The notes below the pieces were generated by a model. It was not told the DNA's origin. It did no database searches and saw nothing but the letters and a program-made list of their open reading frames with translations. 64,000 nucleotides of DNA from positions 1 through 64,000 of the forward strand of contig NZ_CAMFLA010000006.1 of NCBI RefSeq assembly GCF_945957525.1, read 5' to 3'. A program made the position numbers and the translations under genes. Origin of the DNA: an uncultured Aquitalea sp. (GTDB lineage Bacteria > Pseudomonadota > Gammaproteobacteria > Burkholderiales > Chromobacteriaceae). Shown here in pieces: positions 28,106 to 55,011 of this stretch; position 1 is the first letter of the stretch, and each line of letters starts with the position of its first letter.

Positions 28106-28149
28106 CGCTTGCAGCCGAAGGCAGCGCTTCGGCCAACCTCAGCTTGGCG

Positions 28150-52238: not shown

Positions 52239-52292
52239 AATTGTCGCGGCAGCCGCCGGGCCCCGTACAGACAGACAATTTCAATAATTGTC
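52239..52292. promoter_or_regulatory. AATTGTC half-site cluster upstream of the dehydrogenase operon
   Basis: GACAATT (52274-52280) and AATTGTC (52286-52292) form a 7-bp inverted repeat with a 5-nt centre. A third AATTGTC occurs at 52239. They overlap the end of the clc-type gene and lie 65-118 nt before the aldehyde dehydrogenase start. They are candidate operators; the regulator is unknown. Confidence 0.4.
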
Positions 52293-53570
52293 CCTGCGCC
52301 AGCCCTCCACCTGCCCTACCGTCGTACCTTTGGGCGGCACGGCCTGGCGATGCTTGGCATGGCCGATGCGCTGAGCCTTGTAGATGCCGCTGTAGCCGGA
52401 AAACAGATAGCTGGCCACGCAAGCCAAGCCGGCATAAACGCCGATTTCTCCGCCAAACAGCTCCATCGCCATTATGGTGGAGGCTATGGGCGTATTGGCC
52501 GCGCCGGCAAAAACGGCGACAAACCCCAAGCCGGCCAGCAAGGGGAAAGGCAGCTGCAGCAAGGGGGCCAGCGCGTTGCCCAGCGTGGCGCCGATGTAAA
52601 ACAGCGGCGTCACTTCACCGCCCTTGAAGCCGGCGGCCAGCGAGCCCACGGTCATGGCCAGCTTGGCGGCGAAATCGTAGGCTGCCACCGGCTGTACAAA
52701 CGCCTCTTTGATCACCGGAATGCCAAGGCCGATGTAGCGATCCGCCCCCAGCCCCATCACCACGGCGGCAATCAGCACGCCGCCCAGCAAAGGCCGCAGC
52801 GGCGCATAGGCCACACGCCGCTTCACCCAGGCGCCCAGCCGGTGCGTGGCTTCGGCAAACACCCGCCCCACAAGGCCGAACAACACGCCAGCCAGCAAGG
52901 TGGCGGCAAGATTCCAGGCGCTCATGCCCGGCACGAAAGGCACGCTGTAATGGGTATGATGCACACCCCACAGCAAGCCCACCTGGTCGGCAACAATGGC
53001 GGCCACCAGGCAGGGGAACAAGGCCTCGTAACGCATGCGGCCCATGGTGAGCACTTCCAGCGCAAATACCGCTCCGGCCAGCGGCGTGCCGAAAACCGAG
53101 GAAAAACCGGCGCTGACCCCCACCATCAGCAGGATGCGACGCTCACCCGGCGCCAACCGCAGCAGGCGGGTCAACTGGTCGGCCAGCGCCCCGCCCATCT
53201 GCACCGCAGTACCTTCACGACCCACCGACGCGCCAAACAGATGCGATATCACCGTACCGCCCAGCACCAGGGGGGCCATGCGCAGCGGGATGATGCGCGA
53301 GGGATCGTGGATTTCATCAATCAGCAGGTTGTTGCCCGCCTCCACCGACTGGCCGTAGCGCAGATAAGCCCAGCCCACGGCAAAACCGGCCAAGGGCAGC
53401 AACCAGATCAGCCAGCGATGGTTGTCGCGAGTGTTGGTGGCCCAGTCGAGGGCGTGCAGGAAGAATGCCGATGCCGTGCCGGCCAGCAAGGCCACCGCGC
53501 AGGAAATGAGCAGCCAGCGGGCCAGCCGCTGCGGCAGGAACAGGGTTTCGGGAGGATGCTTGATGAACAT
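52281..53570 (-). CDS. CLC-F-type fluoride/proton antiporter
   Basis: Membrane exporter of the CLC superfamily, 429 residues with many hydrophobic helices. The ion-path segments are not those of chloride CLCs. In place of GSGIP it has G-N-N-L-L-I-D-E-I-H, then G-R-E-G-T-A-V-Q-M-G-G with the gating Glu, and later F-K-G-G-E-V-T-P-L-F. These features fit the fluoride-specific CLC-F clade, and the gene sits behind a fluoride riboswitch. I chose the ATG at 53570; a start at 53633 would add 21 residues that include a dispersed motif copy. No strong ribosome binding site decides between them. Confidence 0.88.
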   Translation of the reverse strand: MFIKHPPETLFLPQRLARWLLISCAVALLAGTASAFFLHALDWATNTRDNHRWLIWLLPLAGFAVGWAYLRYGQSVEAGNNLLIDEIHDPSRIIPLRMAPLVLGGTVISHLFGASVGREGTAVQMGGALADQLTRLLRLAPGERRILLMVGVSAGFSSVFGTPLAGAVFALEVLTMGRMRYEALFPCLVAAIVADQVGLLWGVHHTHYSVPFVPGMSAWNLAATLLAGVLFGLVGRVFAEATHRLGAWVKRRVAYAPLRPLLGGVLIAAVVMGLGADRYIGLGIPVIKEAFVQPVAAYDFAAKLAMTVGSLAAGFKGGEVTPLFYIGATLGNALAPLLQLPFPLLAGLGFVAVFAGAANTPIASTIMAMELFGGEIGVYAGLACVASYLFSGYSGIYKAQRIGHAKHRQAVPPKGTTVGQVEGWRRDNY

Positions 53571-53736
53571 GTGCGCCGTCTTGTGTGCCGGCGTTGCAGC
53601 AGCGGCCTTCGGCCAACCTTGCTGGAACGCCATGTGGTCATGGCCCCGAGAGGCGGCGCCGGCATGCCCGCACCGCCCGTCATCGCCGCAGCAGGTCGCG
53701 CGCCAGCGCGAGGCCTGAACAGCTTGTCGGGGAATG

Positions 53737-53815
53737 TGCAGGCATCATCAGCCCACGGGGGGCGGTTGCTCGCCGGGCCTTGCGCCGCGACGACGGGAGG
53801 CATGCCATCTCCCGA
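53737..53815 (-). ncRNA. fluoride (crcB) riboswitch
   Basis: On the minus strand the sequence GGGAGATGGCATGCCTCCC is followed, after a GC-rich variable stem, by GGGCTGATGATGCCTGC. This matches the known crcB aptamer layout GG-N-GATGGCAT-N-CC-N-CC ... GCTGATGATGCC, including the pseudoknot strands. It lies about 170 nt upstream of the CLC-F-type gene on the same strand and just downstream of a terminator hairpin for the neighbouring gene. Fluoride binding would be expected to switch the exporter on. Confidence 0.88.
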
Positions 53816-53851
53816 AGTCCATCATGCTAATGCAGGGGCCGCTCCGGATGC

Positions 53852-53882
53852 AACAAGGCCGACCCGATGGGTCGGCCTTGTT
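53852..53882. terminator. terminator downstream of the TerC-type gene
   Basis: A 14-bp perfect stem AACAAGGCCGACCC / GGGTCGGCCTTGTT with a GAT loop. It separates the TerC-type gene from the riboswitch-controlled unit. Confidence 0.85.
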
Positions 53883-53924: not shown

Positions 53925-54908
53925 TCAGGCCGGATCCTTGCGCGTCTTGTGCAAGGAGAACAATACCCCCCCAAACAACAGGCCCAGCGTGACCGCCAGC
54001 GACAGACCGGTGGGAATGTGCCAACTCACCAGACCGATGTCGTTCAGGTAGACCAGCCCCACCTTCACGCCAATGAATACCAGCACCACCGCCAGCGCGT
54101 ACTTCAGGTACTCGAACCGGTGCACCATGGCCGCCAGCGCGAAATACAGCGCGCGCAGACCCAGAATGGCGAAGATGTTGGAGGTGTACACCAGGAACGG
54201 GTCCTGCGTGATGGCAAAGATGGCCGGAATGCTATCCACGGCAAAAACCAGGTCGGCGCTTTCCACCAACATCAGCGTCAGCAGCAGCGGCGTGGCCCAC
54301 CAGCCCTTCTTCAGGCCGTGCTGTTCGCCGCGCACCAGAAAGTGCGAACCGTGCAGCGTGGGCGTCAAGCGCAGATGCCCGCGCAGCCACTGGTACAGGC
54401 GGTTGTCCTCCAGCGAGGGATGCGCCTCTTCCTTGGACAGCAGCATTTTCGCGCCGGTCACAATAAGGAACAGACCGAAGATCACCAGTACCCACTTGAA
54501 CTCGGCTACCAGCACCGCACCCAGGCCTATCATCAGTGCGCGCAGGACGATAACGCCCAGAATCCCCCAGAACAGCACACGGTGCTGATACTGACGCGGC
54601 ACCGCCATGCCGGTGAAAATCAACGACATCACAAAGATGTTGTCCATGGACAGCGATTTTTCCACCAGATAACCGGTGAGGTACTGCATGCCGGCGTCGC
54701 CGCCCTTGTACCACCACACCCAGCCGCCGAAGGCCAGCCCCATGGCGATGTAGAAGGCCGACAGCTTCAGGCTCTCCGCCACGCCGATTTCATGGTCGTC
54801 CTTGTGCAGCACACCCAGATCAAAAGCCAGCAGCGCGCCGACAATGCCGGCGAACATCAGCCATACCCACAAGGGATAGCCGACAAAAGCGATATACAAC
54901 CAATCCAT
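53925..54908 (-). CDS. TerC/Alx-family membrane protein
   Basis: A 327-residue inner-membrane protein with about nine helices, of the TerC/Alx type. The conserved acidic motifs are F-D-L-G-V-L-H-K, S-M-D-N-I-F-V and D-L-V-F-A-V-D-S-I-P-A-I-F-A-I-T. E. coli Alx and related proteins export manganese and are controlled by pH or Mn-sensing RNA leaders. The ATG at 54908 has GGGAAAG upstream and the protein begins M-D-W-L-Y. I see no yybP-ykoY riboswitch in the short leader (103 nt to htpX). Confidence 0.88.
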   Translation of the reverse strand: MDWLYIAFVGYPLWVWLMFAGIVGALLAFDLGVLHKDDHEIGVAESLKLSAFYIAMGLAFGGWVWWYKGGDAGMQYLTGYLVEKSLSMDNIFVMSLIFTGMAVPRQYQHRVLFWGILGVIVLRALMIGLGAVLVAEFKWVLVIFGLFLIVTGAKMLLSKEEAHPSLEDNRLYQWLRGHLRLTPTLHGSHFLVRGEQHGLKKGWWATPLLLTLMLVESADLVFAVDSIPAIFAITQDPFLVYTSNIFAILGLRALYFALAAMVHRFEYLKYALAVVLVFIGVKVGLVYLNDIGLVSWHIPTGLSLAVTLGLLFGGVLFSLHKTRKDPA

Positions 54909-55011
54909 GACTTGCTTTCCCCGGCTGCGCGCCGGAATCAAAAGGAGCAGGCAAGGCGCCTGCTCCATCGAATCTCATCCCGAAGGCAGTCCTTCGGCCA
55001 ACCTTGTCGTT

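Follow-up and report, generated by a model that had tools for sequence, protein, structure and literature searches.

A fluoride riboswitch and CLC-F exporter in an Aquitalea genome, and the probable translational control behind its unusual leader

How does a fluoride riboswitch control its exporter gene when no terminator stands between the two? The question is raised by the window analysed here, a stretch of 64,000 nucleotides from an uncultured Aquitalea sp. (family Chromobacteriaceae, order Burkholderiales; contig NZ_CAMFLA010000006.1). In this class of riboswitch, fluoride and Mg2+ close a pseudoknotted aptamer, raising production of the exporter; a CLC-F antiporter exports fluoride by exchanging it for protons. 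We consider it probable (about 0.75) that the locus is a fluoride-resistance unit in which the 5' leader of a CLC-F gene carries a riboswitch that acts, most likely on translation, by the switch scheme of its relatives, here in a derived leader. The pair itself is of a known kind; of interest are the scheme shared by the relatives, the unusual leader of the window and a dispersed 12-mer found in it.

The aptamer and the exporter gene

The pair consists of the following features, with a possible promoter element:

53824–53829, reverse strand: possible -10 element TAGCAT, directly before the aptamer (by eye)
53732–53821, reverse strand: aptamer of the fluoride riboswitch (RF01734), its P1 and P2 separated by a 27-nt hairpin insert (cmscan and folding of the insert)
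52281–53570, reverse strand: gene of a CLC-F fluoride/proton antiporter, 429 aa from the homologous start; the open frame extends up to an ATG at 53633

The first-pass annotation had described an aptamer close to the crcB consensus and suggested a covariance-model search for the crcB RNA. The search bears the description out: cmscan of the window yields a significant match to Rfam RF01734 (43.4 bits against a gathering cut-off of 34, E = 1e-8), and in the whole 4.05 Mb genome it is the single match (E = 1.5e-10). In the RF01734 alignment, P1 is formed by GGGAG/CUCCC and P2 by GCCC/GGGC, the pseudoknot halves GGCAU/AUGCC are complementary, and the CUGAUGA is also there. The aptamer presumably binds fluoride. 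Its score is lower than that of the aptamers of many other genera, the family maximum being 57 bits, and its P1 is separated from P2 by the 27-nt insert.

Nine genomes of the genus have an RF01734 match: that of the window and G001–G008, among which G001, G004, G006, G007 and G008 are Aquitalea. Their aptamers measure 90–101 nt and all have an insert between P1 and P2 (loci L023–L028, L030 and L128, and 53732–53821 of the window). As cut by script, the inserts are 27–39 nt long, the length being understated for L026, where the cutting pattern ended too early; each has a predicted stem, of -6.3 to -21.2 kcal/mol. The search of G009, a genus genome that is 61% complete, gave no RF01734 match. 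In the 114-nt aptamer of L031 (genome G035), the P2 stem seems by eye to be lengthened by a hairpin of about 50 nt, another tolerated insert.

The TAGCAT also occurs at the equivalent place in relatives from the genus, again by eye; a promoter scan gave no site above its threshold. Between the aptamer and a gene of the TerC/Alx family (53925–54968), we noticed by eye a perfect 14-bp inverted repeat, AACAAGGCCGACCC / GGGTCGGCCTTGTT (53852–53882), which has no T-run and is absent from the terminator scan.

The open reading frame downstream of the aptamer (52281–53633, reverse strand) encodes 450 aa from the ATG at 53633, and the protein matches Pfam Voltage_CLC (E = 2.2e-71). Its translation contains GNNLLID, GREGTAVQMG and GGEVTP, that is, all three of the signatures given for CLC-F (GNNLI/GMGLI, GREGT/V and GEVTP; PMC11139923), GNNLL being one letter off GNNLI. 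At an E threshold of 0.001 four solved sequences are found: 6d0j, 6d0k and 6d0n, entries of a CLC-type fluoride/proton antiporter, with E between 1e-62 and 1e-61, and 3nd0 (Sll0855), whose E of 6e-7 compares with 1.1e-62 for 6d0j. The NCBIfam models of chloride CLCs score under their cut-offs. By these sequence comparisons the protein sides with CLC-F rather than with the chloride CLCs. The CLC-F marks noticed at first reading are upheld by both the signatures and the nearest solved relative. The best solved match, 6D0J, listed under Enterococcus casseliflavus in a table of PMC11139923, shares GREGT/V and GEVTP with the window protein, whereas its aligned selectivity motif is GMNLV in place of GNNLL; the same paper gives both an N form and an M form of this motif. 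The genome has two further CLC genes, and a CRCB search of it gave no match at E = 0.001, which leaves the CLC-F of the window as the only fluoride exporter found there.

The pair is conserved in the family. Out of 61 genomes, 34 encode a close CLC-F (E no higher than 1e-124) and 32 contain an aptamer over the cut-off; the CLC-F gene follows directly on the aptamer in 31 of the 34. Three CLC-F genomes, G038, G054 and G059, gave no aptamer match, and cmscan of the CLC-F locus itself was empty too in G054 and G059. Together with the covariance score and the CLC-F signatures, this conservation supports the earlier proposal of a complete fluoride-resistance unit: riboswitch and exporter are confirmed here, at the level of sequence, as a textbook pair.

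Two family genomes hold additional arrangements. G041 has no CLC-F match and two divergent aptamers (L029 and L130), one ahead of a crcB gene (identified by eye; it provided the crcB query) and the other ahead of a gene that by eye is enolase-like. In G034, a second fluoride aptamer (L129) follows the CLC-F gene and precedes a cysteine-containing ORF of 270 aa, a Pfam search of which gave no match.

A multi-strand arrangement in the leaders of relatives

Terminator-based fluoride riboswitches are common (PMC13273304) and the leader of the window has GC-rich hairpins, both of which would suit control by early termination of transcription, whether intrinsic or dependent on Rho. The scan between 53570 and 53732, made for intrinsic-type sites, found nothing terminator-like; an intrinsic terminator was rejected as the expression platform, and we regard control by termination of either kind as very unlikely. 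As no terminator follows the aptamer, control at translation is the most likely mode. Some fluoride riboswitches presumably act in this way (PMC8814607), and Pseudomonas syringae and Burkholderia pseudomallei are named as translational controls (PMC13273304). The locus shares with the translational members of RF01734 the aptamer fold, the place upstream of a fluoride exporter and the absence of a terminator; it differs from them by a longer leader, a candidate anti-pseudoknot strand lying further downstream and, like the eight other matched genomes of its genus, by the insert between P1 and P2.

We collected 73 CLC-F leaders: 31 from the family (the window included), 8 from the order and 34 from named loci, the last being those with an aptamer among 68 scanned. 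Removing leaders more than 85% alike left 55 non-redundant ones besides that of the window. By eye, many of the leaders have the same order of parts: the 3' strand of the aptamer (GCCUACAG), a segment A (CCUGGAC), an anti-pseudoknot strand (CUGUAGGC), a segment B (GUCCAGG) and a segment C (CUGGAC) immediately before the AUG. Some leaders, for example those of Aquitalea, have no recognisable C.

Position rather than complementarity then decided where the segments were cut, and the pairing of each with its own partner was compared with its pairing with partners from other leaders. Own partners were stronger in 47 of the 55 leaders for the anti-pseudoknot helix (p = 9e-9), in 45 for A:B (p = 2e-7) and in 47 for B:C (p = 1e-7). 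Compared with dinucleotide shuffles, these helices had mean z values of -3.2, -2.5 and -1.6, respectively, with z below -2 in 42, 31 and 19 of the 55. The stretches of B used by A:B and by B:C overlap in 52 of 55 leaders, a figure that says little alone, since the shuffles average 0.77.

For the covariation counts 44 of the 55 leaders were aligned, 11 having been excluded by eye beforehand. In the anti-pseudoknot helix, 96.6% of cells are paired and 37 are double-change cells, values that none of 500 shuffles attained; slid controls are 25–50% paired. For B:C, 73.7% of cells are paired (0/500 shuffles) with 10 double-change cells (0/500); four of six slid versions exceed this last count (14, 14, 21 and 13 at slides -1, +1, +2 and +3), with far fewer cells paired. 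For A:B, 70.1% of cells are paired (28/500 shuffles) with 16 double-change cells (0/500), the covariation score is reached by 34 of 500 shuffles, and two of six slid versions have at least as many double-change cells; A is misaligned in some rows of this alignment. The leaders are related, so that the pairing and covariation tests are not independent and none of the covariation numbers is to be read as a probability. We take the anti-pseudoknot helix of the relatives as secure at the level of sequence, and the A:B and B:C pairings as less certain and partly supported, mainly by the test of own against foreign partners.

These strands suggest a switch. In the relatives without fluoride, the free 3' strand of the aptamer would pair with the anti-pseudoknot strand just downstream, enclosing A; B, left free, would base-pair to C, which lies at the ribosome-binding site, and keep the gene off. 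With fluoride, the aptamer would close, A would pair with B, and C would be released, turning the gene on. Such a translational switch is the simplest reading of these leaders. Folding predictions make the start region costlier to open when the aptamer is open than when it is closed in 40 of the 55 (by more than 0.5 kcal/mol) and cheaper in 8.

We also considered an expression platform specific to CLC-F and rejected it: the crcB leaders of the order (26 usable out of 29) trend the same way, more weakly, with own partners stronger in 22, 19 and 18 of the 26 for the anti-pseudoknot helix, A:B and B:C. The scheme is therefore not special to CLC-F.

The published model comprises the aptamer and one downstream hairpin, which corresponds to the anti-pseudoknot helix described here, and the covariation models of that work were built from terminator-containing fluoride riboswitches (PMC13273304). 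In the parts of that work consulted, no layer like A, B and C is seen. The comparative set of leaders offers a concrete model, testable by mutation, for the possible working of translational fluoride riboswitches.

The leader of the window

Measured to the ATG at 53570, the leader of the window is 161 nt long, against 59–120 nt in the 72 relatives. It contains the following elements, the roles of the second and third being proposed from pairing:

53736–53745, reverse strand: 3' strand of the aptamer, AUGCCUGCAC, with the 3' half of the pseudoknot; able to pair with 53664–53673
53664–53673, reverse strand: candidate anti-pseudoknot strand, GUGCGGGCAU, forming 10 pairs with 53736–53745
53652–53677, reverse strand: hairpin GGCGGUGC/GCGCCGCC (-19.9 kcal/mol), which contains the candidate strand and would compete for it
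53696–53712, reverse strand: GC-rich stem, CTCGCGCTGGCGCGCGA, unsupported as expression platform
53608–53619, reverse strand: one occurrence of AGGTTGGCCGAA, a dispersed 12-mer, belonging to the leader or, with a translation start at 53633, to an N-terminal extension

The length of the leader depends on the start codon, which is uncertain. Related proteins align from about residue 22 of the open reading frame, which is the ATG at 53570, and they start near there, so that 53570 is the more likely start by homology. The in-frame ATG at 53633 would give a leader of 98 nt, inside the range of the relatives, and a CLC-F with an N-terminal extension of 21 residues encoding the repeat; such an extension is seen in 0 of the 30 other CLC-F starts of the family chosen by homology, and we hold this start to be distinctly the less probable of the two. 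We continue with the start at 53570.

The conserved A/B/C arrangement was not found at its usual positions in this leader. There, z is -0.9 for the anti-pseudoknot helix, -0.3 for A:B and -1.0 for B:C, none above the shuffles; in the partner test, A:B and B:C are stronger than with foreign partners and the anti-pseudoknot helix is weaker. A strong alternative partner for the 3' strand of the aptamer is present at 53664–53673, about 40 nt further downstream than in the relatives: the helix that it forms with 53736–53745 has a predicted energy of -18.6 kcal/mol, and a helix as strong arises in only 1 of 500 shuffled versions of the leader (dinucleotide shuffling). This leader is a derived one, which would keep the same switch logic with the strand moved and, in this species, with the candidate strand inside a hairpin that would compete for it.

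Predicted opening energies do not confirm such a switch, and switching in this species is accordingly only our inference. The start at 53570 costs 7.2 kcal/mol to open with the aptamer closed and 5.0 with it open, the wrong direction; the start at 53633 is slightly harder to open with the aptamer open (13.5 against 12.4) and would be shut in both states. These energies, the absence of the conserved arrangement from its usual place and the length of the leader are what one would expect if the aptamer still bound fluoride in front of a rebuilt, lengthened platform that no longer switches, leaving the exporter constitutive or poorly made. We judge this unlikely, given the intact aptamer, which suggests selection, and the strong partner at 53664–53673. 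A leader that still switches, in derived form, is the reading we retain.

The first-pass annotation had also pointed to a GC-rich hairpin at about 53696–53712 as a possible expression platform. The GC-rich stretch is there; its proposed role finds no support, for we saw no counterpart in the leaders of relatives and no terminator-like site. The patch that includes it (nt 17–51 of the leader) matches five other places in the genome, perhaps through CGCTGGCG-type words, which are very common in the DNA of the window.

A dispersed 12-mer in the leader

Compared with its own genome, the leader matches at least 44 places (itself included), at least 36 of them within about nt 100–146. This part contains AGGTTGGCCGAA, a 12-mer with 417 exact copies in the genome, 197 in one orientation and 220 in the other (0 and 1 for a control with the pattern reversed). 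A 16-base version allowing up to two mismatches occurs 544 times, against 5 for its reversed control. Nine exact copies lie in the window, including those at 53608–53619, 54993–55004 and 28128–28139; the copies near 54993 and 28128 (two of the nine) each come right behind an ORF's stop codon, with an inverted CCTTCGG partner nearby.

More than 50 copies are found in 8 of the 61 family genomes: that of the window, G035 (144), G036 (610), G037 (465), G044 (Paludibacterium denitrificans, 599), G045 (Pseudogulbenkiania ferrooxidans 2002, 468), G046 (68) and G047 (P. subflava, 384); elsewhere in the family there are 22 in G033, 11 in G034 and 0–6 in the rest. That the 12-mer marks the genus as a whole was rejected, since the nine remaining genomes of the genus, one being only 61% complete, have 0–5 copies. 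Within 399 genomes of the order, none but G000 and G037 has more than five. Its core word, TTGGCCGAA or TTTGCCGAA, occurs in 1 of the 73 CLC-F leaders, that of the window.

Like the DNA uptake sequence of Neisseriaceae, which is also a 12-mer, the word is present in hundreds of copies, about equally in the two orientations, and is restricted to a clade, in this case within Chromobacteriaceae. It differs in having CCG where GCCGTCTGAA has its CTG core, a core present in all eight uptake-sequence dialects of a 2013 survey (PMC3630211). With this replacement we refrain from classing it among the DNA uptake sequences, and call it uptake-sequence-like by copy number, orientation balance and clade restriction. 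We take the name Lutiella nitroferrum 2002 to be an older one for P. ferrooxidans 2002. Both Lutiella nitroferrum 2002 and Pseudogulbenkiania sp. are named in the 2013 survey, whose table of over-represented 10-mers may include the word (PMC3630211). By title and abstract, none of the matches listed in a literature search for the 11-mer GGTTGGCCGAA was on uptake sequences.

A wider reading would join these observations: CLC-F riboswitches of beta- and gammaproteobacteria would share a multi-strand translational switch that goes beyond the model of aptamer plus hairpin, rebuilt in this genome with its strand about 40 nt downstream, in a leader that has acquired an undescribed uptake-like repeat marking part of Chromobacteriaceae. 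Taken as a whole this is speculative, and we put it forward tentatively. If the 12-mer guides DNA uptake, it would extend uptake to bacteria without an obvious uptake sequence in the 2013 survey, as far as its text goes (PMC3630211), and it deserves a study of its own. The window also has 15 occurrences of a related word, GTTTGCCGAA, which is perhaps a second form of the AGGTTGGCCGAA repeat.
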